Positions 15,195-64,000 of a stretch of 64,000 nucleotides of DNA are shown here, one piece after another. Every line of letters begins with the position of its first letter. Within the stretch, counting starts at the first letter, position 1. The translations under genes were made by a program, and so were the position numbers. Source of the DNA: Crossaster papposus (taxonomy: Eukaryota > Echinodermata > Asteroidea > Velatida > Solasteridae); assembly GCA_037893245.1 (NCBI GenBank), contig JBAIAA010000262.1, forward strand, positions 1,240,001 to 1,304,000, in the 5' to 3' direction. The notes under the pieces are model-generated. The model was not told the origin of the DNA. It saw only the letters and a program-made list of their open reading frames with translations, and made no database searches.

Positions 15195-15244
15195 AAAATA
15201 ATCGACACTTTTCTGAATAGAGTGACGTCACAAGAGTAGTTTAA

Positions 15245-25583: not shown

Positions 25584-28123
25584 TTACTATGCGTAACTAT
25601 TTTTAATGAAAATGAAATCACTATTAAGGAAATAATTATCCTGAGCAGACCGAGGTTGTGGTCACCCGACCTCTCCGTTACTGACCAAGAAAGTGTCTAC
25701 TTCGTCACTCTGAGTCGAGTACCTCAAGTCATACCAACAACTTGTTATCAGAGCGAGGTTTCGATCCTCGGACCTCTGGGTTATGGGCCCAGCACGCTTC
25801 CACTGCGCCATTCTGCTTCATGTGAATTTAGAAACAGAAAACAAAATTAAAGCAGACATTCTAAAAACATTCTAAAATATGTATTACATTTTAATAACAG
25901 TGAAGCAAAACAAACTCTTCAGCAGAGCGACGTTTTGGTCCTCGGACATCTGGGTTATGGGCCCAGCACGCTCACACTGCAACACTCTGCGTAACTATTT
26001 TTAATGAAAATGAAATCACTATCAAGGAAATAATTATTCTGAGCAGACCGAGGTTGTGGTCATCCGAACTCTCGGTTACTGACCAAGAAAGTGTCTACTT
26101 CGTCACTCTGAGTCGAGTACCTCAAGTCATACCAAAAAGTTGTTAGCAGAGCGAGGTTTCGATCCTCGGACCTCTGGGTTATGGGCCAAGCAAGCTTCCA
26201 CTGCGCCACTCTGCTACATGTGAATTTAGAAACAGCAAACAAAATGAAAGCAGACATTCTAAAAACATTCTAAAATATTTATTAAATTTGAATAACAGTG
26301 AAGCAAAAATACCTCTTTAGCAGATCGAGGTTTTGGTCTTCGGACCTCTGGGTTATGGGCCCAGCACGCTCCCACTGCAACACTCTGCGTAACCATTTTT
26401 AATGAAAATGAAATCACTATCAAGGAAATAATTATTCTGAGCAGACCGAGGTTGTGGTCATCCGAACTCTCGGTTACTGACCAAGAAAGTGTCTACTTCG
26501 TCACTCTGAGTCGAGTACCTCAAGTCATACCAAAAACGTGTTAGCAGAGCGAGGTTTCGATCTTCGGACCTCTGGGTTAAGGGCCCATCACGCTTCCACT
26601 GCGCCACTCTACTTCATGTAAAGTTAGAAACAGCAAACAAAATGAAAGCAGACATTCTAACAACATTCTAAAATATTTATTAAATTTGAATAACAGTTTA
26701 ACAAAAATACCTCTTTAGCAGAGCGAGGTTTTGGTCTTCGGACCTCTGGGTTATGGGCCCAGCACGCTCCCACTGCAACACTCTGCGTAACTATCTTTCC
26801 TGAAAATGAAATCACTATCAAGGAAAAAATTATCCTGAGCAGACCGAGGTTGTGGTCATCCGAACTCTCGGTTACTGACCAAGAAAGTGTCTACTTCGTC
26901 ACTCTGAGTCGAGTACCTCAAGTCATACCAAAAACTTGTTAGCAGAGCGAGGTTTCGATCCTCGGACCTCTGGGTTATGGGCCCAGCACGCTTCCACTGC
27001 GCAATTCTGCTTCATGTGAATTTAGAAACAGAAAACAAAATTAAAGCAGACATTCTAAAAACATTCTAAAATATGTATTACATTTTAATAACAGTGAAGC
27101 AAAACAAACTCTTCAGCAGAGCGACGTTTTGGTCCTCGGACATCTGGGTTATGGGCCCAGCACGCTCACACTGCAACACTCTGCGTAACTATTTTTAATG
27201 AAAATGAAATCACTATCAAGGAAATAATTATTCTGAGCAGACCGAGGTTGTGGTCATCCGAACTCTCGGTTACTGACCAAGAAAGTGTCTACTTCGTCAC
27301 TCTGAGTCGAGTACCTCAAGTCATACCAAAGACTTGTTAGCAGAGCGAGGTTTCGATACTCAGACCTCTGGGTTATGGGCCCAGCACGCTTCCACTGCGC
27401 CACTTTGCTTCATGTGAATTTAGAAACAGCAAACAAAATGAAAGCAGACATTCTAAAAACATTCTAAAATATTTATTAAATTTGAATAACAGTGAAGCAA
27501 AAATCCCTCTTTAGCAGAGCGAGGTTTTGGTCTTCGGACCTCTGGGTTATGGGCCCTGCACGCTCCCACTGCAACACTCTGCGTAACTATTTTTAATGAA
27601 AATGAAATCACTATCAAGGAAATAATTATCCTGAGCAGACCGAGGTTGTGGTCATCCGAACTCTCGGTTACTGACCAAGAAAGTGTCTACTTCGTCACTC
27701 TGAGTCGAGTACCTCAAGTCATACCAAAAACGTGTTAGCAGAGCGAGGTTTCGATCTTCGGACCTCTGGGTTAAGGGCCCATCACGCTTCCACTGCGCCA
27801 CTCTACTTCATGTAAAGTTAGAAACAGCAAACAAAATGAAAGCAGACATTCTAAAAACATTCTAAAATATTTATTAAATTTGAATAACAGTTAAACAAAA
27901 ATACCTCTTTAGCAGAGCGAGGTTTTGGTCTTCGGACCTCTGGGTTATGGGCCCAGCACGCTCCCACTGCAACACTCTGCGTAACTATCTTTCCTGAAAA
28001 TGAAATCACTATCAAGGAAAAAATTATTCTGAACAGACCGAGGTTGTGGTCATCCGAACTCTCGGTTACTGACCAAGAAAGTGTCTACTTCGTCACTCTG
28101 AGTCGAGTACCTCAAGTCATACC

Positions 28124-28128
28124 AAAAA
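28124..28128 (-). terminator. Pol III oligo-T terminator of tRNA copy 1
   Basis: Five A on the plus strand (five T in the transcript sense), six bases beyond the last tRNA base. RNA polymerase III terminates at runs of four or more T. Equivalent runs lie at 30098-30102 and 31624-31628, and at the same place after most A modules. Confidence 0.75.
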
Positions 28129-28133
28129 CTTGT

Positions 28134-28205
28134 TAGCAGAGCGAGGTTTCGATCCTCGGACCTCTGGGTTATGGGCCCAGCACGCTTCCACTGCGCCACT
28201 CTGCT
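28134..28205 (-). tRNA. Initiator tRNA-Met (CAT), fully paired copy 1
   Basis: Read on the minus strand: acceptor AGCAGAG/CTCTGCT with discriminator A (7 of 7 paired, A1:U72), D-stem GCGC/GCGT, anticodon stem CTGGG/CCCAG with loop CCCATAA (anticodon CAT), variable AGGTC, T-stem CGAGG/CCTCG with loop ATCGAAA; 72 nt in total. A1:U72, the three consecutive G:C pairs, C33, and A54/A60 in the T-loop are the accepted hallmarks of metazoan initiator tRNA and exclude elongator Met. No intron and no encoded CCA. TTTTT follows after five bases. This is among the best candidates for a functional gene in the window. Confidence 0.95.
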
Positions 28206-28307
28206 TCATGTGAATTTAGAAACAGAAAACAAAATTAAAGCAGACATTCTAAAAACATTCTAAAATATGTATTACATTTGAATAACAGTGAAGCAAAACA
28301 AACTCTT

Positions 28308-28379
28308 CAGCAGAGCGAGGTTTTGGTCCTCGGACATCTGGGTTATGGGCCCAGCACGCTCACACTGCAACACTCTGCG
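28308..28379 (-). pseudogene. Module B reference: initiator-like tRNA with altered T-loop
   Basis: On the minus strand the anticodon arm is intact (CTGGG, CCCATAA, CCCAG), but the acceptor begins CGCAGAG against CTCTGCT, losing A1:U72, the D-arm is changed, and the T-loop reads ACCAAAA instead of ATCGAAA. That removes the conserved core of the Pol III B box. Many B modules elsewhere also carry CTCTTGG (an A41 mismatch) in the anticodon stem. Best read as a tRNA pseudogene class that is amplified with the array. An RNA role other than translation cannot be excluded. Confidence 0.75.
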
Positions 28380-28428
28380 TAACTATTTTTAATGAAAATG
28401 AAATCACTATCAAGGAAATAATTATTCT

Positions 28429-28500
28429 GAGCAGACCGAGGTTGTGGTCATCCGAACTCTCGGTTACTGACCAAGAAAGTGTCTACTTCGTCACTCTGAG
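28429..28500 (-). pseudogene. Module C reference: diverged 72-nt tRNA fossil
   Basis: Aligns without gaps to the initiator tRNA across all 72 positions. Acceptor CTCAGAG/GTCTGCT pairs at only four positions. The anticodon stem CTTGG/CCGAG still closes with one G-U. The loop is TCAGTAA, so the anticodon position reads AGT. The T-arm GGATG/CCTCG no longer pairs. Despite the broken fold, the sequence is strikingly uniform across the array, which fits homogenisation of a dead copy rather than selection on a tRNA. Confidence 0.7.
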
Positions 28501-28531
28501 TCGAGTACCTCAAGTCATACCAAAAACTTGT

Positions 28532-28603
28532 TAGCAGAGCGAGGTTTCGATCCTCGGACCTCTGGGTTATGGGCCCAGCACGCTTCCACTGCGCCAATCT
28601 GCT
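28532..28603 (-). tRNA. Initiator tRNA-Met-like (CAT), one acceptor mismatch
   Basis: G7 to T gives a U7:C66 mismatch; otherwise identical to the perfect gene one unit to its left. It shows that decay begins even in the best-preserved stretch. Confidence 0.65.
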
Positions 28604-28929
28604 TCATGTGAATTTAGAAACAGAAAACAAAATTAAAGCAGACATTCTAAAAACATTCTAAAATATGTATTACATATGAATAACAGTGAAGCAAAACAAA
28701 CTCTTCAGCAGAGCGAGGTTTTGGTCCTCGGACATCTGGGTTATGGGCCCAGCACGCTCACACTGCAACACTCTGCGTAACTATTTTTAATGAAAATGAA
28801 ATCACTATCAAGGAAATAATTATTCTGAGCAGACCGAGGTTGTGGTCATCCGAACTCTCGGTTACTGACCAAGAAAGTGTCTACTTCGTCACTCTGAGTC
28901 GAGTACCTCAAGTCATACCAAAAACTTGT

Positions 28930-28950
28930 TAGCAGAGCGAAATGAAAATG
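28930..28950. repeat. Truncated-module junction (three copies)
   Basis: A module is cut after its first 11 plus-strand bases (TAGCAGAGCGA) and joined directly to AATGAAAATGAAAATG of the B-to-C spacer, deleting the rest of one module. The same junction occurs at 31078-31088 and 35847-35857, so one deletion product was copied to three places, including beside the MITE. Confidence 0.75.
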
Positions 28951-30107
28951 AAAATGAAATCACTATCAAGGACATAATTATCCTGAGCAGACCGAGGTTG
29001 TGGTCATCCGAAATATCGGTTACTGGCCAAGAAAGTGTCTACTTCGTCACTCTGAGTCGAGTACCTCAAGTCATACCAAAAACGTGTTAGCAGAGCGAGG
29101 TTTCGATCTTTGGACATCTGGGTTAAGTGCCCAGCACGCTTCCACTGCGCCACTCTACTTCATGTAAAGTTAGAAACAGCAAACAAAATGAAAGCAGACA
29201 TTCTAAAAACATTCTAAAATATTTATTAAATTTGAATAACAGTTAAGCAAATATCTCTCTTTAGCAGAGCGAGGTTTTGGTCTTCGGACCTCTGGGTTAT
29301 GGGCCCAGCACGCTCCCACTGCAACACTCTGCGTAACTACTTTTAATGAAAATGAAATCACTATCAAGGAAATAATTATCCTGAGCAGACCGAGGTTGTG
29401 GTCATCCGAACTCTCGGTTACTGACCAAGAAAGTGTCTACTTCGTCACTCTGAGTCGAGTACCTCAAGTCATACCAAAAACTTGTTAGCTGAGCGAGGTT
29501 TCGATCCTCGGACCTCTGGGTTATGGGCCCAGCACGCTTCCACTGCAACACTCTGCGTAACTATTTTTAATGAAAATGAAATCACTATCAAGGAAATAAT
29601 TATCCTGAGCAGACCGAGGTTGTGGTCATCCGAACTCTCGGTTACTGACCAAGAAAGTGTCTACTTCGTCACTCTGAGTCGAGTACCTCAAGTCATACCA
29701 AAATCTTGTTAGCAGAGCGAGGTTTCGATACTCAGACCTCTGGGTTATGGGCCCAGCACGCTTCCACTGCGCCACTCTGCTTCATGTGAATTTAGAAACA
29801 GCAAACAAAATGAAAGCAGACATTCTAAAAACATTCTAAAATATTTATTAAATTTGAATAACACTGAAGCAAAAATCCCTCTTTAGCAGAGCGAGGTTTT
29901 GGTCTTCGGACCTCTGGGTTATGGGCCCAGCACGCTCCCACTGCAACACTCTGCGTAACTATCTTTCCTGAAAATGAAATCACTATCAAGGAAAAAATTA
30001 TCCTGAACAGACCGAGGTTGTGGTCATCCGAACTCTCGGTTACTGACCAAGAAAGTGTCTACTTCGTCACTCTGAGTCGAGTACCTCAAGTCATACCAAA
30101 AACTTGT

Positions 30108-30179
30108 TAGCAGAGCGAGGTTTCGATCCTCGGACCTCTGGGTTATGGGCCCAGCACGCTTCCACTGCGCCACTCTGCT
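30108..30179 (-). tRNA. Initiator tRNA-Met (CAT), fully paired copy 2
   Basis: Identical over all 72 bases to the copy at 28134-28205, with the same five-T run five bases beyond the 3' end (30098-30102). The 5' flank contains AGAAAACAAAATT like the other perfect copies, so the flanks co-evolve with the gene, as expected for duplication of whole units. Confidence 0.95.
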
Positions 30180-31633
30180 TCATGTGAATTTAGAAACAGA
30201 AAACAAAATTAAAGCAGACATTCTAAAAACATTCTAAAATATGTATTACATTTGAATAACAGTGAAGCAAAACAAACTCTTCAGCAGAGCGAGGTTTTGG
30301 TCCTCGGACATCTGGGTTATGGGCCCAGCACGCTCACACTGCAACACTCTACGTAACTATTTTTAATGAAAATGAAATCACTATCAAGGAAATAATTATT
30401 CTGAGCAGACCGAGGTTGTGGTCATCCGAACTCTCGGTTACTGACCAAGAAAGTGTCTACTTCGTCACTCTGAGTCGAGTACCTCAAGTCATACCAAACA
30501 CTTGTTAGCAGAGCGAGGTTTCGATCCTCGGACCTCTGGGTTATGGGCCCAGCACGCTTCCACTGCGTCACTATGCTTCATGTGAATTTAGAAACAGAAA
30601 ACAAAATTAAAGCAGACATTCTAAAAACATTCTAAAATATGTATTACATTGGAATAACAGTGAAGCAAAAAAAAATCTTTAGCAGAGCGAGGTTTTGGTC
30701 CTCGGACATCTGGGTTATGGGCCCAGCACGCTCACACTGCTCCACTCTACTTCATGTACATTTAGAAACAGCAAACAAAATGAAAGCAGACATTATACAA
30801 ACATTCTAAAATATGTATTAAATTTGAATAACAGTGAAGCAAAAATACCTCTTTAGCAGAGCGAGGTGTTGGTCTTCGGACCTCTGGGTTATGGGCCCAG
30901 CACGCTCCCACTGCAACACTCTGCGTAACTATTTTTAATGAAAATGAAATCACTATCAAGGAAATAATTATTCTGAGCAGACCGAGGTTGTGGTCATCCG
31001 AACTCTCGGTTACTGACCAAGAAAGTGTCTACTTCGTCACTCTGAGTCGAGTACCTCAAGTCATACCAAAAACTTGTTAGCAGAGCGAAATGAAAATGAA
31101 AATGAAATCACTATCAAGGAAATAATTATCCTGAGCAGACCGAGGTTGTGGTCATCCGAACTCTCGGTTACTGACCAAGAAAGTGTCTACTTCGTCACTC
31201 TGAGTCGAGTACCTCAAGTCATACCAAAAACGTGTTAGCAGAGCGAGGTTTCGATCTTCGGACCTCTGGGTTAAGGGCCCATCACGCTTCCACTGCGCCA
31301 CTCTACTTCATGTAAAGTTAGAAACAGCAAACAAAGTGAAAGCAGACATTCTAAAAACATTCTAAAATATTTATTAAATTTGAATAACAGTTAAACAAAA
31401 ATACCTCTTTAGCAGAGCGAGGTTTTGGTCTTCGGACCTCTGGGTTATGGGCCCAGCACGCTCCCACTGCAACACTCTGCGTAACTATCTTTCCTGAAAA
31501 TGAAATCACTATCAAGGAAAAAATTATCCTGAACAGACCGAGGTTGTGGTCATCCGAACTCTCGGTTACTGACCAAGAAAGTGTCTACTTCGTCACTCTG
31601 AGTCGAGTACCTCAAGTCATACCAAAAACTTGT

Positions 31634-31705
31634 TAGCAGAGCGAGGTTTCGATCCTCGGACCTCTGGGTTATGGGCCCAGCACGCTTCCACTGCGCCACT
31701 CTGCT
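31634..31705 (-). tRNA. Initiator tRNA-Met (CAT), fully paired copy 3
   Basis: Third copy identical over 72 bases to those at 28134 and 30108. Pol III terminator-like TTTTT lies at 31624-31628. The three perfect copies fall within 3.6 kb of each other. I found no fully identical 72-mer elsewhere in the window by eye. Confidence 0.95.
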
Positions 31706-32826
31706 TCATGTGAATTTAGAAACAGAAAACAAAATTAAAGCAGACATTCTAAAAACATTCTAAAATATGTATTACATTTGAATAACAGTGAAGCAAAACA
31801 AACTCTTCAGCAGAGCGAGGTTTTGGTCCTCGGACATCTGGGTTATGGGCCCAGCACGCTCACACTGCAACACTCTGCGTAACTATTTTTAATGAAAATG
31901 AAATCACTATCAAGGAAATAATTATTCTGAGCAGACCGAGGTTGTGGTCATCCGAACTCTCGGTTACTGACCAAGAAAGTGTCTACTTCGTCACTCTGAG
32001 TCGAGTACCTCAAGTCATACCAAAAACTTGTTAGCAGAGCGAGGTTTCGATACTCAGACCTCTGGGTTATGGGCCCAGCACGCTTCCACTGCGCCACTCT
32101 GCTTCATGTGAATTTAGAAACAGCAAACAAAATGAAAGCAGACATTCTAAAAACATTCTAAAATATTTATTAAATTTGAATAACACTGAAGCAAAAATCC
32201 CTATTTAGCAGAGCGAGGTTTTGGTCTTCGGACCTCTGGGTTATGGGCCCAGCACGCTCCCACTGCAACACTCTGCGTAACTATCTTTCCTGAAAATGAA
32301 ATCACTATCAAGGAAAAAATTATCCTGAACAGACCGAGGTTGTGGTCATCCGAACTCTCGGTTACTGACCAAGAAATGTCTACGTCGTCACTCTGAGACG
32401 AGTACCTCAAGTCATACCAAAAACTTGTTAGCAAAGCGAGGTTTCGATCCTCGGACCTCTGAGTTATGGGCCCAGCACGCTTCCACTGCGCCACTCTGCT
32501 TCATGTGAATTTAGAAACAGCAAACAACATTAAAGCAGACATTCTAAAAACATTCTAAGATCTGTATTATATTTGAATAACAGTGAAGCAAAAATACCTC
32601 TTTAGCAGAGCGAGGTTTTGGTCCTCGGACCTCTGGGTTATGTGCCCAGCACGCTCCCACTGCAACACTCTGCGTAACTATTTTTAATGAAAATGAAATC
32701 ACTATCAAGGAAATAATTATCCTGAGCAGACCGAGGTTGTGGTCATCCGACCTCTCCGTTACTGACCAAGAAAGTGTCTACTTCGTCACTCTGAGTCGAG
32801 TACCTCAAGTCATACCAAAAACGCGT

Positions 32827-33660
32827 TAGCAGAGCGAGGTTTCGATCTGCGGACCTCTGGGTTAGGGGCCCAGCACGCTTCCACTGCGCCACTCTACTTC
32901 ATGTAAAATTAGAAACAGAAAACAAAATGAAAGCAGACATTCTAAAAACATTCTAAAATATTTATTACATTTGAATAACAGTGAAGCAAAAATACCTCTT
33001 TAGCAGAGCGAGGTTTTGGTCCTCGGACCTCTGGGTTATGTGCCCAGCACGATTCCACTGTGCCACTCTGCTTCATGTGAATTTAGAAACAGCAAACAAA
33101 ATGAAAGCACACATTCTAAAAACATTCAAAAATAGTTATTTCATTTGAATAACAGTGAAGCAAAAATACCTCTTTAGCAGAGCGAGGTTTTGGTCCTCGG
33201 ACCTCTTGGTATGTGCCCAGCACGCTCCCACTGCTCCACTATGCGTAACTATTTTTAATGAAAATGAAATCACTATCAAGAAAATAATTATCCTGAGCAG
33301 ACCGAGGTTGTGGTCATCCTAACTCTCGGTTACTGACCAAGAAAGTGTCTACTTCGTCACCCTGAGTCGAGTACCTCAAGTCATACCAAAAGCGTGTTAG
33401 CAGAGCGAGGTTTCGATCTTCGGACCTCTGAGTTATGGGCCCAGCACGCTTCCACTGCGCCACTCTACTTCATGTAAAGTTAGAAACAGCAAACAAAATG
33501 AAAGCAGTCATTCTAAAACATTCTAAAATATTTATTAAATTTGAATAACAGTGAAGCAAAAATACCTCTTTAGCAGAGCGAGGTTTTGGTCATCGGACCT
33601 CTGGGTTATGGGCCCAGCACGCTCCCACTGCAACACTCTGCGTAACTATTTTTAATGAAA
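32827..33660. repeat. Distant copy of the 8.17-9.0 kb block
   Basis: This stretch matches 8166-9000 almost base for base at an offset of 24660-24661, including the CCT-anticodon module, the TATGTGCCC variants, the GCGTGTT leader and the AGCAGTCATTCTAAAACATTC spacer change. A single base lost near 33210 accounts for the offset change. The two copies lie on opposite sides of both large insertions. Confidence 0.8.
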
Positions 33661-34764
33661 ATGAAATCACTATCAAGGAAATATTTATCCTGAGCAGACC
33701 GAGGTTGTGGTCATCCGATCTCTCGGTTACTGACCAAGAAAGTGTCTACTTCGTCACTCTGAGTCGAGTACCTCAAGTCATACCAAACACTTGTTAGCAG
33801 AGCGATGTTTCGATCCTCGGACCTCTGGGTTATGGGCCCAGCACGCTTCCACTGCGCCACTCTGCTTCATATGAATTTAGAAACAGCAAACAAAATGAAA
33901 GCAGACATTCTAAAAACATTCTAAAATATTTATTACATTTGAATAACAGTGAAGCAAAAATATATCTTTAGCAGAGCGAGGTTTTGGTCCTCGGACCTCT
34001 AGGTTATGTGCCCAGCACGCACCCACTGCTCCACTCTACTTCATGTAAATTTAGAAACAGAAAACAAAATGAAAGCAGACATTCTAAAAACATTCTAAAA
34101 TATTTATTAAATTTGAATAACAGTGAAGCAAAAATACCTCTTTAGCAGAGCGAGGTTTTGGTCTTCGGACCTCTGGGTTATGGGCCCAGCACGCTCCCAC
34201 TGCAACACTCTGCGTAACTATTTTTAATGAAAATGAAATCACTATCAAGGATATAATTTTCCTGAGCAGACCGAGGTTGTGGTCATCCGATCTCTCGGTT
34301 ACTGACCAAGAAAGTGTCTACTTCGTCACTCTGAGTGGAGTACCTCAAGTCATACCAAACACTTGTTAGCAGAGCGATGTTTCGATCCTCGGACCTCTGG
34401 GTTATGTGCCCAGCACGCTCCCACTGCTCCACTCTACTTCATGTACATTTAGAAACAGCAAACAAAATAAAAGCAGACATTCTAAAAACATTCAAAAATA
34501 TGTATTAAATTTAAATAACAGTGAAGCAAAAATACCTCTTAAGCAGAGCGAGGTGTTGGTCCTTAGACCTCTTGGTTATGGGCCCAGCACGCTCCCACTG
34601 CTCCACTATGCGTAACTATTTTTAATGAAAATGAAATCACTATCAAGGAAATAATTATCCTGAGCAGACCGAGGTTGTGGTCATCCGAACTCTCGGTTAC
34701 TGACCAAGAAAGTGTCTACTTCGTCACTCTGAGTCGAGTACCTCAAGTCATACCAACAACTTGT

Positions 34765-34836
34765 TAGCAGAGCGAGGTTTCGATCATCGGACCTCTGGGT
34801 TATGGGCCCAGCACGCTTCCACTGCGCCACTCTGCT
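34765..34836 (-). tRNA. Initiator tRNA-Met-like (CAT), one T-stem mismatch
   Basis: Single change in the T-stem (GATCATCGG instead of GATCCTCGG on the plus strand) leaves a mismatch next to the T-loop. All other elements are canonical. The B-box promoter overlaps this base, so transcription could be reduced. Confidence 0.6.
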
Positions 34837-35162
34837 TCATGTGAATTAAGAAACAGCAAACTAAATTAAAGCAGACTTTCTAAAAACATTCTAAAATAGT
34901 GATTATATTTGAATAACATTGAAGCAAACATACCTCTTTAGCAGAGCGAAGTTTTGGTCTTCGGACCTCTGGGTTATGGGCCCAGCAGGCTCCCACTGCA
35001 CCACTCTGCGTAACTATTTTTAATGAAAATGAAATCACTATCAAGGAAATAATTAACCTGAGCAGACCGAGGTTGTGGTCATCCGAACTCTCGGTTACTG
35101 ACCAAGAAAGTTTCTACTTCGTCACTCTGAGTCGAGTACCTCAAGTCATACCAAAAACGTGT

Positions 35163-35234
35163 TAGCAGAGCGAGGTTTCGATCCTCGGACCTCTGGGTTA
35201 TGGGCCCAGCACGCTTCCACTGCGCCACTCTGTT
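35163..35234 (-). tRNA. Initiator tRNA-Met-like (CAT), one acceptor mismatch
   Basis: G2 to A gives A2:C71; the rest is canonical. It is the last A-type module before the MITE. Confidence 0.6.
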
Positions 35235-35483
35235 TCATGTGAATTTAGAAAAAGCAAACAAAATGAAAGCAGACATTCTAAAAACATTCTAAAATATTTA
35301 TTACATTTGAATAACAGTGAAGCAAAAATACCTCTTTAGCAGAGCGAGGTTTTGGTCCTCGGACCTCTTGGTTATGTGCCCAGCACGCTCCCACCCCACT
35401 GCAACACTCTGCGTAACTATTTTTAATGAAAATGAAATCACTATCAAGGAAATAATTATCCTGAGCAGACCGAGGTTGTGGTC

Positions 35484-35491
35484 ATCCGAAC
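35484..35491. repeat. MITE target-site duplication, left copy
   Basis: ATCCGAAC, matching 35765-35772 exactly. Uninterrupted C modules elsewhere contain the sequence once (GTCATCCGAACTCTC), which confirms the pre-insertion site. Confidence 0.9.
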
Positions 35492-35764
35492 CACTGACCT
35501 CTATACATGGACAGATCATCCATTGTTTAATTTTGAAGTCGGCATGCAGAGAAGTGCAACATGGCGGACCCACAAAGTCACTCTGTGAGCCAATGAAATG
35601 TCCAGGTGTAGAGTTCAGTTGGTTGGTAAATCCACTGACCTCTACAACTGGACATTTCATTGGCTCACAGCAGTGACGCCATGTTGCACTTCCAGTTCGC
35701 GCCGACTTCAAGTGTTAGCACAGCAGAATATGGACAATGATCCGTCCAGGTGTTGAGGTCAGTG
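35492..35764. mobile_element. 273-bp fold-back MITE, hAT-like
   Basis: Flanked by a perfect 8-bp target duplication ATCCGAAC (35484-35491 and 35765-35772) inside a C module. Terminal inverted repeats begin CACTGACCTC and match at about 24 of 28 positions. Internally GTGAGCCAATGAAATGTCCA pairs with its complement further right, and AAGTGCAACATGGCG pairs with CGCCATGTTGCACTT, so the whole element folds back. The TIR-like motif CACTGACCTCTACA also occurs internally. No coding capacity. An 8-bp duplication with CA-start TIRs points to hAT, though other 8-bp superfamilies remain possible. Confidence 0.88.
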
Positions 35765-36576: not shown

Positions 36577-36648
36577 TAGCAGAGCGAGGTTTCGATCCTC
36601 GAACCTCTGGGTTATGGGCCCAGCACGCTTCCACTGCGCCACTCTGCT
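36577..36648 (-). tRNA. Initiator tRNA-Met (CAT), all stems intact
   Basis: One difference from the perfect copies, C to T in the variable loop (position 48). All four stems, the CCCATAA loop and the ATCGAAA loop are intact. Position 48 makes the Levitt pair in most tRNAs, so the change may be mildly destabilising. TTTTT trailer present. Confidence 0.82.
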
Positions 36649-37966
36649 TCATGTGAATTTAGAAACAGCAAACAAAATGAAAGCGGACATTCTAAAAACA
36701 TTCAAAAATATGTATTACATTTGAATAACAGTGAAGCAAAAATACCTCTTTAGCAGAGCGAGGTTTTGGTCCTCGGACCTCTGGGTTATGGGCCCAGCAC
36801 ACTCCCACCGCACCACTCTGCGTAACTATTTTTAATGAAAATGAAATCACTATCAAGGAAATAATTATCCTCAGCAGACCGAGGTTGTGGTCATCCGAAC
36901 TCTCGGTTACTGACCAAGAAAGTGGTCTACTTCGTCACTCTGAGTCGCGTACCTCAAGTAATACCAAAAACTTGTTAGCAGAGCGAGGTTTTGGTCCTCG
37001 GAACTCTGGGTTATGGGCCCAGCTCGCTCCCATTGCGCCTCTCTGCTTCATGTAAATTTAGAAACAGAAAACAAAATTAAAGCAGACATTCTAAAAACAT
37101 TCTAAAATATTTATTACATTTGAATAACAGTGAAGCAAAACTACCTCTTTAGCAGAGCGAGGTTTTGGTGTTCGGACCTCTGGGTTATGGGCCGAGCACG
37201 CTCCCACTGCAACACTTTGCGTAACTATTTTTAATGAAAATGAAATCACTATCAAGGAAATAATTTTCCTGAGCAAACCGAGGTTGTGGTCATCAGAACT
37301 CTCGGTTAATGACCAAGAAAGTGTCTACTTCGTCACTCTGAGTCGAGTACCTCAAGTCATACCAAAAACTTGTTAGCAGAGCGATGTTTCGATCCTCGGA
37401 CCTCTGGTTTATGGGCCCAGCACGCTTCCCCTGCGCCACTTTGCTTCATATGAATTTAGAAACAGCAAACAAAATGAAAGCAGACATTCTCAAAACATTC
37501 TAAAATATTTATTACATTTGAATAACAGTGAAGCAAAAATACCTCTTTAGAAGAGCGAGGTTTAGGTCCTCGGACCTCTGGGTTATGGGCCCAGCACGAT
37601 TCCACTGCGCCACTCTGCTTCATGTGAATTTAGAAACAGCAAACAAAATTAAAGCAAACATTCTAAAAACATTTTAAAATAGTTATTACATTCCAATAAC
37701 AGTGAAGCAAAAATACCACTTTAGCAGAGCGAGGTTTTGGTCCCAGCACGCTCCCACTGCTCCACTATGCGTAACTATTGTTAATGAAATTGAAATCACT
37801 ATCAAGGAAATAATTATCCTGAGCAGACCAAGTTTGTGGGCATCCGAACTCTCGGTTACTGACCAAGAAAGTGTCTACTTCGTCACTCTGAGTCGAGTAC
37901 CTCAAGTCATACCAAAAGCTTGTTAGCAGAGCGAGGTTCCGATCCTCGGACCTCTGGGTTATGGAC

Positions 37967-43900: not shown

Positions 43901-44211
43901 TTTGTAATGAAAATGAAATCACTATCAAGCAAATAATTATCCTGAGCAGACCGAGGTTGTGGTCATCCGAACTCTCGGTTACTGACCAAGAACGTGGTCT
44001 ACTTCGTCACTCTGAGTCGCGTACCTCAAGTAATACCAAAAACTTGTTAGCAGAGCGAGGTTTTGGTCCTCGGACCTCTGGGTTATGGGCCCAGCACGCT
44101 CCCATTGCGCCTCTCTGCTTCATGCAAATTTAGAAACATAAAACAAAATTAAAGCAGACATTCTAAAAACATTCTAAAATATTTATTACATTTGAATAAC
44201 AGTGAAGCAAA
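37967..44211. repeat. 3149-bp tandem segmental duplication
   Basis: About 37967-41062 and 41116-44211 are nearly identical at a constant offset of 3149. Markers such as ACTTGGAAGC fall at 38148 and 41297. I noticed only about three differences (near 38738/41887, 39976/43125 and 40318/43467). Identity ends near 41063/44212, where AATACCTC changes to AATAACTC. This is the youngest-looking event in the window. Confidence 0.85.
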
Positions 44212-54730: not shown

Positions 54731-55888
54731 TATGGGCCCAGCACGCTCCCACTGCTCCACTATGCGTAACTATTTTTAATGAAAATGAAATCACTATTAA
54801 GGAAATAATTATCCTGAGCAGACCGAGGTTGTGGTCATCCGACCTCTCCGTTACTGACCAAGAAAGTGTCTACTTCGTCACTCTGAGTCGAGTACCTTAA
54901 GTCATACCAAAAACTTGTTAGCAGAGCAAGGTTTCGATCCTCGGACCTCTGGGTTATGGGCCCAGCACGCGTCCACTGCGCCACTCTGCTTCATGTGAAT
55001 ATAGAAACAACAATCAAAATTAAAGCAGACATTCTAAAAACATTCTAAAATATGTATTACATTTGAATAACAGTGAAGCAAAAATACCTCTTTAGACGAG
55101 CGAGGTTTTGGTCCTCGGACCTCTGTGTTATGGGCCCAGCACGCTCCCACTGCTCCACTCTACTTCTTGTGAATTTAGAAACAGCAAACAAAATGAAAGC
55201 AGACATTCTAAAAACATTCTAAAATATTTATTAAATTTGAATAACAATGAAGCAAAAATACCTCTTTAGCAGAGCGAGGTTTGGGTCTTCGGACCTCTGG
55301 ATTATGGGCCCAGCACGCTCCCACTGCAACACTATGCGTAACTATTTTTAATGAAAATGAAATCACTATTAAGGAAATAATTATCCTGAGCAGACCGAGG
55401 TTGTGGTCATCCGACCTCTCCGTTACTGACCAAGAAAGTGTCTACTTCGTCACTCTGAGTCGAGTACCTCAAGTCATACCAAAAACTTGTTAGCAGAGCG
55501 AGGTTTCGATCCTCGGACCTCTGGATTTTGGGCCCAGCACGCGTCCACTGTGCCACTCTGCTTCATGTGCATTTAGAAACAACAAACAAAATTAAAGCAG
55601 ACATTATAAAAACATTCTAAAATATGTATTACATTTGAATAACAGTTAAGCAAAAATACCTCTTTAGCCGAGCGAGGTTTTTGTCCTCGGACCTCTGGGT
55701 TATGGGCCCAACACGCTCCCACTGCTCCACTATGGGTAACTATTTTTAATGAAAAGGAAATCACTATTAAGGAAATAATTATCCTGAGCAGACCGAGGTT
55801 GTGGTCATCCGACCTCTCCGTTACTGACCAAGAAAGTGTCTACTTCGTCACTCTTAGTAGAGTACCTCAAGTCATACCAAAAACTTGT

Positions 55889-55960
55889 TAGCAGAGCGAG
55901 GTTTCGATCCTCGGACCTCTAGGTTATGGGCCCAGCACGCTTCCACTGCGCCACTCTGCT
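55889..55960 (-). tRNA. Initiator tRNA-Met (CAT), G29-U41 variant
   Basis: Single change, C41 to T, turning one of the three diagnostic G:C pairs of the anticodon stem into a G-U wobble. The same variant occurs at 58055-58126 and 60209-60280, so it was spread by segmental duplication. The G:C triplet matters for P-site acceptance of initiator tRNA, so function is uncertain. Confidence 0.75.
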
Positions 55961-58054
55961 TCATGTGAATTTAGAAACAACAAACAAAATTAAAGCAGAC
56001 ATTCTAAAAACATTCTAAAATATTTATTAAATTTGAATAACAGTGAAGAAAAAATACCTCTTTAGCAGAGCGAGGTTTGGGTCTTCGGACCTCTGGGTTA
56101 TGGGCCCAGCACGCTCCCACTGCAACACTCTGCGTAACTATTTTTTAATGACAATTAAATCACTATCAAGGAAATAATTATCCGGAGCAGACCGAGGTTG
56201 TGGTCATCCGAACTCTCGGTTACTGACCAAGAAAGTGTCTACTTCGTCACTCTGAGTCGAGTACCTCAAGTCATACCAACAACTTGTTAGCAGAGGGAAG
56301 TTTCGATCTTCGGACCTCCGGGTTATGGGCCCATCACGCTTCCACTGCGCCACTCTGCTTCATGTGAATTTAGAAACAGCAAACAAAATTAAAGCACACA
56401 TTGTAAAAACATTCTAAAATATTTATTACATTTGAATAACAGTGAAGCAAAAATACCTCTTTAGCAGAACGAGGTTTTGGTCCTCGGACCTCTTGGTAAT
56501 GGGCCCAGCACGCTCCCACTGCTCCACTGTGCGTAACTATTTTTAATGAAAAGGAAATCACTATTAAGGAAATAATTATCCTGAGCAGACCGAGGTTGTG
56601 GTCATCCGAACTCTCGGTTACTGATCAAGAAAGTGTCTACTTCGTCACTCTGAGTCGAGTACCTCAAGTCATACCAACAACTTGTTAGCAGAGGGAAGTT
56701 TCGATCTTCGGACCTCCGGGTTATGGGCCCATCACGCTTCCACTGCGCCACTCTGCTTCATGTGAATTTAGAAACAGCAAACAAAATTAAAGCACACATT
56801 GTAAAAACATTCTAAAATATTTATTACATTTGAATAACAGTGAAGCACAAATACCTCTTTAGCAGAACGAGGTTTTGGTCCTCGGACCTCTTGGTTATGG
56901 GCCCAGCACGCTCCCACTGCTCCACTGTGCGTAACTATTTTTAATGAAAAGGAAATCACTATTAAGGAAATAATTATCCTGAGCAGACCGAGGTTGTGGT
57001 CATCCGACCTCTCCGTTACTGACCAAGAAAGTGTCTACTTCCTCACTCTGAGTCGAGTACCTTAAGTCATACCAAAAACTTGTTAGCAGAGCAAGGTTTC
57101 GATCCTCGGACCTCTGGGTTATGGGCCCAGCACGCGTCCACTGCGCCACTCTGCTTCATGTGAATTTAGAAACAACAAACAAAATTAAAGCAGACATTCT
57201 AAAAACATTCTAAAATATGTATTACATTTGAATAACAGTGAAGCAAAAATACCTCTTTAGCCGAGCGAGGTTTTGGTCCTCGGACCTCTGTGTTATGGGC
57301 CCAGCACGCTCCCACTGCTCCACTCTACTTCTTGTGAATTTAGAAACAGCAAACAAAATGAAAGCAGACATTCTAAAAACATTCTAAAATATTTATTAAA
57401 TTTGAATAACAATGAAGCAAAAATACCTCTTTAGCAGAGCGAGGTTTGGGTCTTCGGACCTCTGGATTATGGGCCCAGCACGCTCCCACTGCAACACTCT
57501 GCGTAACTATTTTTTCATGAAAATGAAATCACTATCAAGGAAATAATTATCCGGAGCAGACCGAGGTTGTGGTCATCCGACCTCTCCGTTACTGACCAAG
57601 AAAGTGTCTACTTCGTCACTCTGAGTAGAGTACCTCAAGTCATACCAAAAACTTGTTAGCAGAGCGAGGTTTCGATCCTCGGACCTCTGGATTTTGGGCC
57701 CAGCACGCGTCCACTGTGCCACTCTGCTTCATGTGCATTTAGAAACAACAAACAAAATTAAAGCAGACATTATAAAAACATTCTAAAATATGTATTACAT
57801 TTGAATAACAGTTAAGCAAAAATACCTCTTTAGCCGAGCGAGGTTTTTGTCCTCGGATCTCTGGGTTATGGGCCCAACACGCTCCCACTGCTCCACTATG
57901 GGTAACTATTTTTAATGAAAAGGAAATCACTATTAAGGAAATAATTATCCTGAGCAGACCGAGGTTGTGGTCATCCGACCTCTCCGTTACTGACCAAGAA
58001 AGTGTCTACTTCGTCACTCTTAGTAGAGTACCTCAAGTCATACCAAAAACTTGT

Positions 58055-58126
58055 TAGCAGAGCGAGGTTTCGATCCTCGGACCTCTAGGTTATGGGCCCA
58101 GCACGCTTCCACTGCGCCACTCTGCT
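58055..58126 (-). tRNA. Initiator tRNA-Met (CAT), G29-U41 variant
   Basis: Same 72-nt sequence as the copy at 55889, 2166 bp further on, inside the second copy of a segmental duplication. Confidence 0.75.
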
Positions 58127-58374
58127 TCATGTGAATTTAGAAACAACAAACAAAATTAAAGCAGACATTCTAAAAACATTCTAAAATATTTATTACATTT
58201 GAATAACAGTGAAGAAAAAATACCTCTTTAGCAGAGCGAGGTTTGGGTCTTCGGACCTCTGGGTTATGGGCCCAGCACGCTCCCACTGCAACACTCTGCG
58301 TAACTATTTTTTAATGACAATTAAATCACTATCAAGGAAATAATTATCCGGAGCAGACCGAGGTTGTGGTCATC

Positions 58375-61300
58375 CGAACTCTCGGTTACTGACCAAGAAA
58401 GTGTCTACTTCGTCACTCTGAGTCGAGTACCTCAAGTCATACCAACAACTTGTTAGCAGAGGGAAGTTTCGATCTTCGGACCTCCGGGTTATGGGCCCAT
58501 CACGCTTCCACTGCGCCACTCTGCTTCATGTGAATTTAGAAACAGCAAACAAAATTAAAGCACACATTGTTAAAACATTCTAAAATATTTATTACATTTG
58601 AATAACAGTGAAGCACAAATACCTCTTTAGCAGAACGAGGTTTTGGTCCTCGGACCTCTTGGTTATGGGCCCAGCACGCTCCCACTGCTCCACTGTGCGT
58701 AACTATTTTTAATGAAAAGGAAATCACTATTAAGGAAATAATTATCCTGAGCAGACCGAGGTTGTGGTCATCCGACCTCTCCGTTACTGACCAAGAAAGT
58801 GTCTACTTCGTCACTCTGAGTAGAGTACCTCAAGTCATACCAAAAACTTGTTAGCACAGCGAGGTTTCAATCCTCGGACCTCTGGGTTATGGGCCCAGCA
58901 CGCTTCCACTGTGCCACTCTGCTTCATGTGAATTGAGAAACAACAAACACAATTAAAGCAGACATTCTAAAATATTTATTAAATTTGAATAACAGTGAAG
59001 CAAAAATACCTCTTTAGCAGAGCGAGGTTTGGGTCTACGGACCTCTGGGTTATGGGCCCAGCACGCTCCCACTGCAACACCATGCGCAACTATTTTTAAT
59101 GAAAATGAAATCACTATTAAGGAAATAATTATCCTGAGCAGACCGAAGTTGTGGTCATCCGACCTCTCCGTTACTGACCAAGAAAGTGTCTACTTCGTCA
59201 CTCTGAGTCGAGTACCTCAAGTCATACCAAAAACTTGTTAGCAGAGCGAAATTTCGATCTTCGGACCTCTGGGTTATGGGCCCATCACGCTTCCACTGCG
59301 CCACTCTGCTTCATGTGAATTTAGAAACAGCAAACAAAATTAAAGGAAAAAATTGTAAAAACATTCTAAAATATTTATTACACTGAATAACAGTGAAGCA
59401 AAAATACCTCTTTAGCAGAACGAGGTTTTGGTCCTCGGACATCTTGGTTATGGGCCCAGCACGCTCCCACTGCTCCACTATGCGTAACTATTTTTAATGA
59501 AAATGAAATCACTATTAAGGAAATAATTATCCTGAGCAGACCGAGGTTGTGGTCATCCGACCTCTCCGTTACTGACCAAGAAAGTGTCTACTTCGTCACT
59601 CTGAGTCGAGTACCTTAAGTCATACCAAAAACTTGTTAGCAGAGCAAGGTTTCGATCCTCGGACCTCTGGGTTATGGGCCCAGCACGCGTCCACTGCGCC
59701 ACTCTGCTTCATGTGAATTTAGAAACAACAAACAAAATTAAAGCAGACATTCTAAAAACATTCTAAAATATGTATTACATTTGAATAACAGTGAAGCAAA
59801 ATACCTCTTTAGCCGAGCGAGGTTTTGGTCCTCGGACCTCTGTGTTATGGGCCCAGCACGCTCCCACTGCTCCACTCTACTTCTTGTGAATTTAGAAACA
59901 GCAAACAAAATGAAAGCAGACATTCTAAAAACATTCTAAAATATTTATTAAATTTGAATAACAATGAAGCAAAAATACCTCTTTAGCAGAGCGAGGTTTG
60001 GGTCTTCGGACCTCTGGATTATGGGCCCAGCACGCTCCCACTGCAACACTCTGCGTAACTATTTTTTCATGAAAATGAAATCACTATCAAGGAAATAATT
60101 ATCCGGAGCAGACCGAGGTTGTGGTCATCCGACCTCTCCGTTACTGACCAAGAAAGTGTCTACTTCGTCACTCTGAGTAGAGTACCTCAAGTCATACCAA
60201 AAACTTGTTAGCAGAGCGAGGTTTCGATCCTCGGACCTCTAGGTTATGGGCCCAGCACGCTTCCACTGCGCCACTCTGCTTCATGTGAATTTAGAAACAA
60301 CAAACAAAATTAAAGCAGACATTCTAAAAACATTCTAAAATATTTATTACATTTGAATAACAGTGAAGCAAAAATACCTCTTTAGCAGAACGAGGTTTTG
60401 GTCCTCGGACCTCTTGGTTATGGGCCCAGCACGCTCCCACTGCTCCACTGTGCGTAACTATTTTTAATGAAAAGGAAATCACTATTAAGGAAATAATTAT
60501 CCTGAGCAGACCGAGGTTGTGGTCATCCGAACTCTCGGTTACTGACCAAGAAAGTGTCTACTTCGTCACTCTGAGTCGAGTACCTCAAGTCATGCCAACA
60601 ACTTGTTAGCAGAGGGAAGTTTCGATCTTCGGACCTCCGGGTTATGGGCCCATCACGCTTCCACTGCGCCACTCTGCTTCATGTGAATTTAGAAACAGCA
60701 AACAAAATTAAAGCACACATTGTAAAAACATTCTAAAATATTTATTACATTTGAATAACAGTGAAGCACAAATACCTCTTTAGCAGAACGAGGTTTTGGT
60801 CCTCGGACCTCTTGGTTATGGGCCCAGCACGCTCCCACTGCTCCACTGTGCGTAACTATTTTTAATGAAAAGGAAATCACTATTAAGGAAATAATTATCC
60901 TGAGCAGACCGAGGTTGTGGTCATCCGACCTCTCCGTTACTGACCAAGAAAGTGTCTACTTCGTCACTCTGAGTAGAGTACCTCAAGTCATACCAAAAAC
61001 TTGTTAGCACAGCGAGGTTTCAATCCTCGGACCTCTGGGTTATGGGCCCAGCACGCTTCCACTGCGCCACTCTGCTTCATGTGAATTTAGAAACAACAAA
61101 CACAATTAAAGCAGACATTCTAAAATATTTATTAAATTTGAATAACAGTGAAGCAAAAATACCTCTTTAGCAGAGCGAGGTTTGGGTCTACGGACCTCTG
61201 GGTTATGGGCCCAGCACGCTCCCACTGCAACACTATGCGCAACTATTTTTAATGAAAATGAAATCACTATTAAGGAAATAATTATCCTGAGCAGACCGAA

Positions 61301-61775
61301 GTTGTGGTCATCCGACCTCTCCGTTACTGACCAAGAAAGTGTCTACTTCGTCACTCTGAGTCGAGTACCTCAAGTCATACCAAAAACTTGTTAGCAGAGC
61401 GAAATTTCGATCTTCGGACCTCTGGGTTATGGGCCCATCACGCTTCCACTGCGCCACTCTGCTTCATGTGAATTTAGAAACAGCAAACAAAATTAAAGGA
61501 AAAAATTGTAAAAACATTCTAAAATATTTATTACATTTGAATAACAGTGAAGCAAAAATACCTCTTTAGCAGAACGAGGTTTTGGTCCTCGGACATCTTG
61601 GTTATGGGCCCAGCACGCTCCCACTGCTCCACTATGCGTAACTATTTTTAATGAAAATGAAATCACTATTAAGGAAATAATTATCCTGAGCAGACCGAGG
61701 TTGTGGTCATCCGACCTCTCCGTTACTGACCAAGAAAGTGTCTACTTCGTCACTCTGAGTAGAGTACCTCAAGTC
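58375..61775. repeat. 2153-bp segmental duplication
   Basis: About 58375-59620 is repeated at about 60528-61775. TAGCACAGCG at 58852 and 61005 and GCAGAGCGAAA at 59241 and 61394 share the offset of 2153. The copies diverge near 59640/61793, where the next module differs. Confidence 0.72.
60209..60280 (-). tRNA. Initiator tRNA-Met (CAT), G29-U41 variant
   Basis: Third copy of the variant with C41 to T. Acceptor, D and T arms are intact and the TTTTT trailer is present. Confidence 0.75.
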
Positions 61776-62576
61776 ATACCAAAAACTTGTTAGCAGAGCG
61801 ATGTTTCAATCCTTGGACCTCTGGGTTATGGGCCCAGCACGCTACCACTGCGCCACTCTGCTTCATGTGAATTTAGAAACAACAAACAAAATTAAAGCAG
61901 ACATTCTAAAATATTTATTAAATTTGAATAACAGTGAAGCAAAAATACCTCTTTAGCAGAGCGAGGTTTGGGTCTACGGACCTCTGGGTTATGGGCCCAG
62001 CACGCTCCCACTGCAACACTATGCGTAACTATTTTTAATGAAAATGAAATCACTATTAAGAAAATAATTATCCTGAGCAGACCGAGGTTGTGGTCATCCG
62101 ACCTCTCCGTTACTGACCAAGAAAGTGTCTACTTCGTCACTCTGAGTCGAGTACCTCAAGTCATACCAAAAACTTGTTAGCAGAGCGAAATTTCGATCTT
62201 CGGACCTCTGGGTTATGGGCCCATCACGCTTCCACTGCGCCACTCTGCTTCATGTGAATTTAGAAACAGCAAACAAAATTAAAGGAAAAAATTGTAAAAA
62301 CATTCTAAAATATTTATTACATTTGAATAACAGTGAAGCAAAAATACCTCTTTAGCAGAACGAGGTTTTGGTCCTCGGACATCTTGGTTATGGGCCCAGC
62401 ACGCTCCCACTGCTCCACTATGCGTAACTATTTTTAATGAAAATGAAATCACTATTAAGGAAATAATTATCCTGAGCAGACCGAGGTTGTGGTCATCCGA
62501 CCTCTCCGTTACTGACCAAGAAAGTGTCTACTTCGTCACTCTGAGTCGAGTACCTTAAGTCATACCAAAAACTTGT

Positions 62577-62648
62577 TAGCAGAGCAAGGTTTCGATCCTC
62601 GGACCTCTGGGTTATGGGCCCAGCACGCTTCCACTGCGCCACTCTGCT
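62577..62648 (-). tRNA. Initiator tRNA-Met (CAT), G50-U64 variant
   Basis: One change from the perfect copies: T-stem base 64 is T, making a G50-U64 wobble, so every stem still pairs. Anticodon CAT, T-loop ATCGAAA. The same T-stem change (plus TTCC to GTCC in the D-arm) marks the modules near 54926, 57089, 59644 and 63770. A plausible functional gene at the far right of the array. Confidence 0.8.
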
Positions 62649-64000
62649 TCATGTGAATTTAGAAACAGCAAACAAAATTAAAGGAATAAATTGTAAAAAC
62701 ATTCTAAAATATTTATTACATTTGAATAACAGTGAAGCAAAAATACCTCTTTAGCAGAACGAGGTTTTGGTCCTCGGACATCTTGGTTATGGGCCCAGCA
62801 CGCTCCCACTGCTCCACTATGCGTAACTATTTTTAATGAAAATGAAATCACTATTAAGGAAATAATTATCCTGAGCAGACCGAGGTTGTGGTCATCCGAC
62901 CTCTCCGTTACTGACCAAGAAAGTGTCTACTTCGTCACTCTGAGTAGAGTACCTCAAGTCATACCAAAAACTTGTTAGCAGAGCGATGTTTCAATCCTTG
63001 GACCTCTGGGTTATGGGCCCAGCACGCTACCACTGCGCCACTCTGCTTCATGTGAATTTAGAAACAACAAACACAATTAAAGCAGACATTCTAAAATATT
63101 TATTAAATTTGAATAACAGTGAAGCAAAAATACCTCTTTAGCAGAGCGAGGTTTGGGTCTACGGACCTCTGGGTTATGGGCCCAGCACGCTCCCACTGCA
63201 ACACTATGCGTAACTATTTTTAATGAAAATGAAATCACTATTAAGGAAATAATTATCCTGAGCAGACCGAGGTTGTGGTCATCCGACCTCTCCGTTACTG
63301 ACCAAGAAAGTGTCTACTTCGTCACTCTGAGTCGAGTACCTCAAGTCATACCAAAAACTTGTTAGCAGAGCGAAATTTCGATCTTCGGACCTCTGGGTTA
63401 TGGGCCCATCACGCTTCCACTGCGCCACTCTGCTTCATGTGAATTTAGAAACAGCAAACAAAATTAAAGGAAAAAATTGTAAAAACATTCTAAAATATTT
63501 ATTACATTTGAATAACAGTGAAGCAAAAATACCTCTTTAGCAGAACGAGGTTTTGGTCCTCGGACATCTTGGTTATGGGCCCAGCACGCTCCCACTGCTC
63601 CACTATGCGTAACTATTTTTAATGAAAATGAAATCACTATTAAGGAAATAATTATCCTGAGCAGACCGAGGTTGTGGTCATCCGACCTCTCCGTTACTGA
63701 CCAAGAAAGTGTCTACTTCGTCACTCTGAGTCGAGTACCTTAAGTCATACCAAAAACTTGTTAGCAGAGCAAGGTTTCGATCCTCGGACCTCTGGGTTAT
63801 GGGCCCAGCACGCGTCCACTGCGCCACTCTGCTTCATGTGAATTTAGAAACAACAAACAAAATTAAAGCAGACATTCTAAAAACATTCTAAAATATGTAT
63901 TACATTTGAATAACAGTGAAGCAAAAATACCTCTTTAGCCGAGCGAGGTTTTGGTCCTCGGACCTCTGTGTTATGGGCCCAGCACGCTCCCACTGCTCCA

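Follow-up and report, generated by a model that had tools for sequence, protein, structure and literature searches.

The array that fills most of the window (the whole 64,000-nucleotide stretch of DNA that we analysed) is probably a tRNA-derived satellite in late decay that retains a few possibly live genes and that spread by unequal crossing-over in which its A and B bodies served as pairing partners. The satellite would derive from an initiator tRNA-Met locus of a eukaryote, most likely an animal. Its canonical 398-bp unit contains three initiator bodies in the same orientation, namely a near-intact A, a B whose T-loop is broken and a fossil C. On this reading, one stretch of DNA would show a gene of protein synthesis becoming satellite DNA, with successive states of decay next to one another and the exchange points preserved as hybrid genes.

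A tandem array on one strand occupies approximately 53.1 kb of the window (~83%). The initial annotation had spoken of more than 80% of the window and gave the coordinates of the right part; the array also fills the left and middle parts (see the table). Using the three bodies as a BLAST query, we obtained 394 tRNA-derived matches (117 A, 152 B and 125 C), of which 9 are partial (<65 nt); those at 37722 and 37733 are overlapping fragments of one broken body. All 394 lie on the minus strand, and the order is head-to-tail throughout. The counts (269 A/B and 125 C) agree with the earlier estimate of 260-270 A/B modules plus about 130 C modules, and the minus-strand array leaving the window at both ends was likewise borne out, as were the module spacings of 174 and 224 bp, the latter made up of 121+103 bp. 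Two unrelated insertions break the continuity of the array; for the large one, comparing its last frame with solved structures yielded a single weak match (E 0.089), on which nothing here relies. In the window, ARAGORN made 66 tRNA calls, 138 sites passed the Rfam tRNA model RF00005 (gathering score 29; top score 58.7 bits), and a published zebrafish anti-iMet probe matched exactly at 133 sites on the plus strand and 0 on the minus strand.

Because ARAGORN lumps initiator with elongator Met, the identification as initiator rests on the hallmarks and on the match to the anti-iMet probe. A eukaryotic initiator tRNA-Met is recognised by an A-T first pair, a GGG/CCC anticodon stem, A54 and A60; in the 72-nt body the first pair is formed by positions 1 and 71, and the T-loop positions 54 and 60 follow conventional numbering. 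The copies at 28134, 30108 and 31634, which are identical over 72/72 nt, combine these hallmarks with both promoter boxes (A and B) and a T5 terminator, were called tRNA-Met(CAT) by ARAGORN, scored 58.7 bits with RF00005 and match the probe exactly, in keeping with their first assignment as initiator Met. The copy at 36577 was also called Met(CAT) and reached 58.7 bits in Rfam. Within the A class (n=115), the first pair is A-T in 113 bodies, the anticodon stem is GGG/CCC in 95, and A54 and A60 are each present in all 115. For the A/B bodies as a whole (264; 115 A class and 149 B class), every hallmark tested, including the A and B boxes and a terminator of at least T4, and no broken pair were found in 10 copies; these represent 5 distinct sequences, all of which are followed by a T5 run at a distance of 5 nt, and 9 of the 10 lie in the right array part. 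The best copies have all initiator hallmarks and most members are dead, as had been proposed. A haplotype related to the A body at 62577 is present in four copies, at 54919, 57084, 59637 and 63762. To judge from their sequence, Pol III may still transcribe the 10 copies with a full set of hallmarks. When a single body each of A, B and C was folded by minimum energy, the cloverleaf was the best fold for none of them (z -2.09, -1.60 and -0.50, respectively), and we adopted covariance scoring instead.

The A and B bodies are identical at 66 of 72 positions and have unrelated flanks; a complete set of hallmarks occurs in 0/149 B bodies. The C modules had been counted correctly beside the A/B tRNA modules, and their tRNA origin had been overlooked: by sequence, C is another decayed initiator tRNA, the third body of the unit, whose consensus aligns without gaps to A with 50/72 identities (24/72 to a generic tRNA consensus) and which has derived bases in common with B. 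Because Rfam returned nothing up to E 10 for the single C module tested (28370-28535), the tRNA origin of C rests on sequence similarity. Six shuffle-controlled comparisons detected no similarity among the flanks of the A, B and C bodies; a likeness of the B and C 3' flanks was a first impression that the shuffle-controlled comparison did not reproduce.

Table. Positions of the array parts, of one example unit with its spacers, and of selected A and hybrid bodies in the window.
Feature	Position	Strand	Remark
Array, left part	1..13597	-	Extends beyond window start
Array, middle part	15241..16346	-	Flanked by two insertions
Array, right part	25586..64000	-	Extends beyond window end
A body, intact-looking initiator tRNA-Met(CAT)	28134..28205	-	T5 terminator; equals A consensus
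102-bp spacer, B 3' flank / A 5' flank	28206..28307	-	Placed from 398-bp unit
B body, initiator tRNA pseudogene	28308..28379	-	T-loop changed at 54 and 56 of 72-nt body; B box lost
49-bp spacer, C 3' flank / B 5' flank	28380..28428	-	Placed from 398-bp unit
C body, putative fossil third initiator tRNA copy	28429..28500	-	Recognised by sequence only; Rfam match absent
31-bp spacer, A 3' flank / C 5' flank	28501..28531	-	Holds A terminator
A body	30108..30179	-	Same sequence as 28134
A body	31634..31705	-	Same sequence as 28134
A body, hallmark-complete	36577..36648	-	1 base off consensus
A body, hallmark-complete	62577..62648	-	1 base off consensus
A body, hallmark-complete	9135..9206	-	Sole one of left array part
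Putative duplication product	30680..30751	-	102-bp spacer on each side; A-type first base, B-type T-loop
Putative deletion product (reciprocal)	29486..29557	-	Between spacers of 49 and 31 bp; 5' end of B type, T-loop of A type
Putative deletion product, second example	381..452	-	

We compared body type with flank context for the 264 A/B bodies, 4 of which have unclear flanks. In the B slot, 110/111 bodies are fully B-type, and the remaining one is B-type wherever its markers are readable. All 30 bodies of extra 174-bp modules carry an A-type position 1 together with a B-type base at 54, and all 5 bodies of shortened modules show the reciprocal arrangement of a B-type position 1 with A-type bases at 54 and 56; these recombinant bodies at variant spacings went unnoticed in the initial annotation. 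Breakpoints in the 30 duplication products fall in positions 1-10 (24), 11-19 (2) and 19-54 (4), and those in the 5 deletion products fall in positions 11-19 (1) and 19-54 (4). Because the breakpoints vary, several exchange events are required, and because the copies are not independent, these counts overstate the number of events. In 24/30 duplication products, position 1 is the only A-type signal inside the body, which puts the breakpoint at the extreme 5' edge. Among the A-slot bodies (n=114) there are 15 with a B-type T-loop and 4 of mixed type, and additional exchange or conversion is required for these.

Because the tRNA bodies are the sole detectable homology between the unit halves, unequal crossing-over inside the bodies is the best account of the hybrids, which, on their sequence, indicate that the array grew as its tRNA genes paired out of register and exchanged sequence. 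Bodies A and B would act as pairing sites for exchange across the unit halves, and each A/B exchange would leave an extra 174-bp module in one product and a missing module in the other. Units would be gained and lost by unequal crossing-over, a mechanism that we infer, and recombination, more than selection for tRNA supply, would uphold the length of the array; the evidence for this reading comes from a single window of one genome. If the reading is true, unequal crossing-over inside 72-bp genes has left its traces in the reciprocal hybrids.

The earlier description of the array as homogeneous has to be qualified, with a mean divergence of 6.5% among the 81 canonical units that we aligned and 142 distinct sequences among the 264 A/B bodies. 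Divergence between units is 5.8% at less than 500 bp, 5.1-5.3% at 0.5-5 kb and 7.2% beyond 40 kb; because units less than 500 bp apart differ more than those at 0.5-5 kb, homogenisation is more than a plain nearest-neighbour process. Nucleotide diversity (pi) is 0.083 for A, 0.076 for B and 0.065 for the spacers, and the values for A and B are not lower than that of the spacers (P(low) 0.87 and 0.75, respectively). For C it is 0.034, lower than in the spacers (p 0.010; 0.0014 without CpG sites) and lower than in its own flanks (p 0.02; 0.007 without CpG), and among 398 circular 72-bp windows just one is less diverse than C (two without CpG), with sites and copies being non-independent in all of these comparisons. 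C is less variable than the remainder of the unit, a pattern not predicted for a satellite that evolves neutrally.

Of the function ideas put forward initially, that of a selfish satellite, or of a neutral one, fits these data best. Dosage, the idea that selection keeps the cluster because it yields abundant initiator tRNA, possibly for oocytes (maternal use of repeated tRNA genes occurs in zebrafish and Xenopus), is unlikely and gains little from the data: the hallmark-complete A copies with their terminators possibly leave room for tRNA function and for selection on a subset, but the A bodies are as variable as the spacers or more, their paired sites are more variable than the unpaired ones (0.093 vs 0.069), no B body is complete, and nearly all complete copies are confined to the right part. 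In the stem pairs of A, covariation is no higher than in shuffles, and 12/46 of the changes seen preserve pairing compared with 22/126 of those possible, which leans to pair-keeping.

A chromatin element, that is, a boundary or a heterochromatin or centromere satellite acting via TFIIIC at the B boxes or via a protein on the uniform C body, is slightly less probable than dosage. The available text of PMC4041453 links the tRNA repeat at human 1q23.3 to a boundary role, and C is the most uniform part of the unit; however, low diversity in one 72-bp segment is modest evidence, and most B boxes are gone. The Pol III/TFIIIC boundary that had been suggested receives no support from the sequence, a strict B box being present in 33/115 A and 0/149 B bodies. 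We would give a similarly small chance to the view that C, the most decayed body, has been recast as a sequence-specific DNA element (putatively a box that binds a protein in a satellite of centromeres or heterochromatin), such that the dead tRNA is conserved while the intact-looking tRNAs drift.

We regard an origin from a mobile element, in which the repeats would be retroelements headed by a tRNA and arranged in tandem (either a SINE or a TRIM of the Helenus type with tRNA sequence in its LTR), as very improbable. According to the available text of PMC10886601, Helenus LTRs contain tRNA-like sequence and the zebrafish LTR-11_DR family forms tandem arrays, but LTRs would duplicate body and flanks together, whereas the flanks of A, B and C lack similarity, and the bodies are full-length, 10 of them intact-looking. 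Because CCA follows just 2/264 bodies, mature tRNA copies are an unlikely source. That an assembler inflated or scrambled the array is equally hard to credit: tandem arrays are difficult to assemble and exact repeats reach 1405 bp here, but the bodies are diverse, identical unit pairs number 0/54 within 500 bp and 12/3240 overall, and unrelated insertions interrupt the array.

Tandem tRNA arrays are already known in Hydractinia, Entamoeba and human. The classical tandem tRNA genes of Xenopus differ from the present array in their 3.18-kb unit with mixed tRNA types. The Hydractinia arrays (PMC11067881) are likewise tandem tRNA arrays of an animal, whereas the present array has three bodies in each unit, spacers of 31-102 bp and mostly broken copies. 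Entamoeba shares the tandem array units, with up to 5 tRNA genes per unit that concerted evolution most likely homogenises, but according to the available text (PMC2652664) complex short tandem repeats lie between the genes there and pseudogenes are without clear evidence, whereas here one tRNA type is present, mostly as pseudogenes. Compared with arrays of the Hydractinia and Entamoeba kind, regular tRNA repeats with similar spacers are present in the 398-bp unit, but the copies are not mostly intact. The human 1q23.3 tRNA VNTR is also a tandem tRNA gene repeat, variable in copy number in human, but is described in the text available (PMC4041453) as having a GC-rich unit of 7.3 kb in which tRNA genes of more than one type occur, with CTCF binding and 98% unit identity. 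Clusters of tRNA genes and pseudogenes across eukaryotes, which hold 89% of Nematostella tRNA loci, resemble the array in being large, mostly same-strand and inclusive of pseudogenes; the accessible portion of that survey (PMC2888827) does not describe an initiator-only array with a three-body unit, and the word 'initiator' is absent from its main text as available.

In the literature on precedents, whose results were largely off topic, we recognised no array that consists of initiator genes only and whose copies are mostly dead, and we claim no absence in print. Exact-pattern scans gave 0 hits for the spacer sequence and initiator core in viral contigs and 0 for the initiator core in bacterial and archaeal genome contigs. 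The tRNA counts from genomes with such arrays can be inflated; the ARAGORN calls in the window include Lys, Arg, Gln, Leu and Ile isotypes, which are mutated initiator bodies.

The tandem repeat totals about 53.1 kb, or 83% of the window, in agreement with the more than 80% estimated in the initial annotation, and is broken at two places, at about 13598-15240 and about 16345-25585. Using the three tRNA-derived bodies of the unit (71-72 nt) as BLAST queries, we obtained 394 matches in the window: 117 to A, a near-intact initiator tRNA-Met; 152 to B, in which the T-loop is broken; and 125 to C, a fossil. All 394 lie on the minus strand, the orientation that had been annotated; nine fall short of 65 nt, among them 37722 and 37733, which are overlapping fragments of one broken body. 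The canonical unit is 398 bp long and consists, in minus-strand order, of a 31-bp spacer, C, a 49-bp spacer, B, a 102-bp spacer and A.

For 264 of the 269 A and B matches a 72-nt body was obtained, two being cut by the window ends and three being of other length; four of the 264 are extensions of partial matches, including the overlapping pieces 37722 and 37733. ARAGORN made 66 tRNA calls in the window and the Rfam tRNA family reached its gathering score at 138 sites (58.7 bits for the top four), in both cases exclusively on the minus strand; the ARAGORN calls for Lys, Arg, Gln, Ile and Leu are A-class bodies with altered anticodons. Among the 115 A bodies, the initiator hallmarks A54 and A60 (conventional T-loop positions) are each present in all 115, the A-T first pair in 113, the GGG/CCC pairs in 95 and the CAT anticodon in 91, together with an A box in 102, a strict B box in 33 and a run of T4 or longer within 40 nt in 92. 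Every hallmark without a broken pair was found in ten A bodies, which represent five distinct sequences. The B bodies retain CAT (137/149) and a terminator (140/149), with an A box in one and a strict B box in none of the 149. The zebrafish anti-iMet probe published in PMC11417395 has 133 exact matches on the plus strand and none on the minus strand.

Site diversity was 0.083 for A, 0.076 for B, 0.034 for C and 0.065 for the spacers, so that A and B are not less diverse than the spacers (P(low) 0.87 and 0.75, respectively; 0.77 and 0.82 without CpG sites). In A, paired sites are more variable than unpaired ones (0.093 versus 0.069), and stem pairing and covariation among 60 distinct A bodies showed no excess over shuffles. 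Both sides of pair 51-61 are changed in three rows. In the opposite direction, the A stem alleles observed may lean toward pair-keeping (pairing kept in 12 of 46 observed versus 22 of 126 possible). On these diversity and pairing tests, most A and B copies look unprotected for tRNA function, and the ten hallmark-complete A copies may still be functional.

We classed the 264 bodies by both flanks and by diagnostic bases in the 5′ part (positions 1, 10-11 and 19) and the T-loop (54 and 56), the flanks being unclear for four. Of the 111 bodies in the B slot (upstream spacer 49 bp, downstream spacer 102 bp), 110 are wholly B-type, and the last has one marker that could not be read. The 114 bodies in the A slot (102 and 31 bp) all carry the A base at position 1, and their T-loop is A-type at both positions in 95, B-type at both in 15 and mixed in four. 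All 30 bodies between two 102-bp spacers, which form the extra 174-bp modules, combine A at position 1 with B-type at 54, and all five bodies between 49- and 31-bp spacers, in the shortened 224-bp units, combine B at position 1 with A-type at 54 and 56. A crossover joining an A body to a B body would be expected to yield these two hybrid classes. Because the flanks showed no similarity to one another in six shuffle-controlled comparisons, the tRNA bodies are the sole detectable homology linking the unit halves. Breakpoints of the extra-module bodies fall between positions 1 and 10 in 24, where the A-type signal is a single base at the body edge, between 11 and 19 in two, and between 19 and 54 in four; those of the shortened-unit bodies fall between 11 and 19 in one and between 19 and 54 in four. 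Because these breakpoint classes differ, more than one exchange event is needed, and the 30 and five hybrids are not event counts because modules were copied later. The 30 extra-module hybrids are split evenly, 15 each, between the left 15 kb and the right 38 kb of the array, so the exchange history seems unlike between the two sides.

Pairwise divergence among the 81 aligned canonical units averages 6.5%. From its lowest values, 5.1% for pairs 0.5-2 kb apart and 5.3% for those 2-5 kb apart, it rises to 6.0% (5-10 kb), 6.6% (10-20 kb), 6.9% (20-40 kb) and 7.2% (more than 40 kb); pairs less than 500 bp apart differ by 5.8%. The low point between 0.5 and 5 kb is consistent with higher-order blocks, each comprising a few units. 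Identical pairs number 12 of 3240, with none among the 54 pairs within 500 bp, and exact repeats extend to at most 1405 bp. In the assembled sequence, this pattern of divergence and repeats fits local exchange and does not resemble simple duplication by the assembler.

By its sequence, the C module represents a third tRNA. The C segment of the module tested aligns to the A body without gaps over 69 nt (local score 62; maximum of 29 in 2000 dinucleotide shuffles), and the full C consensus is identical to A at 50 of 72 and to B at 51 of 72 positions. Against the generic Rfam tRNA consensus C has 24 matches and A 38, and an Rfam search with one C module gave no match. Because C shares its bases at positions 1, 54 and 56 with B and not A, and those at 11 and 19 with A and not B, it is probably an offshoot of the B line, from which it most likely split later than the T-loop changes.

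C, the most decayed body (e.g., 28429-28500), is the least variable stretch of the repeat. Its diversity is low relative to all spacers (p = 0.010; 0.0014 without CpG sites) and to its own flanks (p about 0.02; 0.007 without CpG; 116 blocks, 78 distinct), and ranks second lowest among 398 circular windows (third without CpG). This uniformity may come partly from the absence of C from A/B exchange, but the C flanks are likewise outside that exchange. C may be under selection as a DNA element, or its uniformity may reflect chance or uneven conversion.

Tandem tRNA arrays have been described in Hydractinia (PMC11067881), Entamoeba (PMC2652664) and human 1q23.3 (PMC4041453) and are covered by a eukaryote-wide survey (PMC2888827). 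Compared with these, as far as the available portions of the sources describe them, the present array differs in having a single tRNA type, three bodies per unit at successive stages of decay, few intact copies and preserved reciprocal hybrids. Maternally deposited zebrafish tRNAs originate, according to PMC11417395, from highly repetitive regions. An origin from a retroelement such as Helenus, which according to PMC10886601 has an LTR with a tRNA-like sequence and forms tandem arrays in one family, is argued against by the mutually unrelated flanks of the array bodies and by the fact that 262 of the 264 bodies are not followed by CCA.

Insertions in the array and hallmark-complete A bodies
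Feature	Position	Length	Site	Characteristics
Second insertion	13598-15240			30-nt-arm hairpin near left end; 18-nt-arm palindrome near right end
Large insertion	16344-25583	~9.2 kb	close to B body 5′ end	inverted ends
Hallmark-complete A bodies	9135, 28134, 30108, 31634, 36577, 54919, 57084, 59637, 62577, 63762			all tests passed, no broken pair

Beyond the second insertion the array restarts within a C body, so that part of a unit was seemingly lost, instead of a target having been duplicated. The large insertion ends in 44-nt inverted arms that are 77% complementary, with a perfect outer 18 bp. One of its six open frames exceeded the Pfam cut-off (ALOG domain, E = 1.3e-06), whose fold is akin to that of DIRS-type recombinases; the other five frames were below the Pfam cut-offs, and an NCBIfam search with five frames gave no match. 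Tentatively, this insertion is probably a broken DIRS/Ngaro-like retroelement. Its retroelement-like character, together with the acceptor stems of the initiator tRNAs, suggests that the DNA comes from an animal. Within the insertion, 19070-20623 carries tandem repeats whose periods are about 61-63, 73 and 96-97 bp and which share a common core of approximately GAGCGGTAATCGGCTCAAGG.
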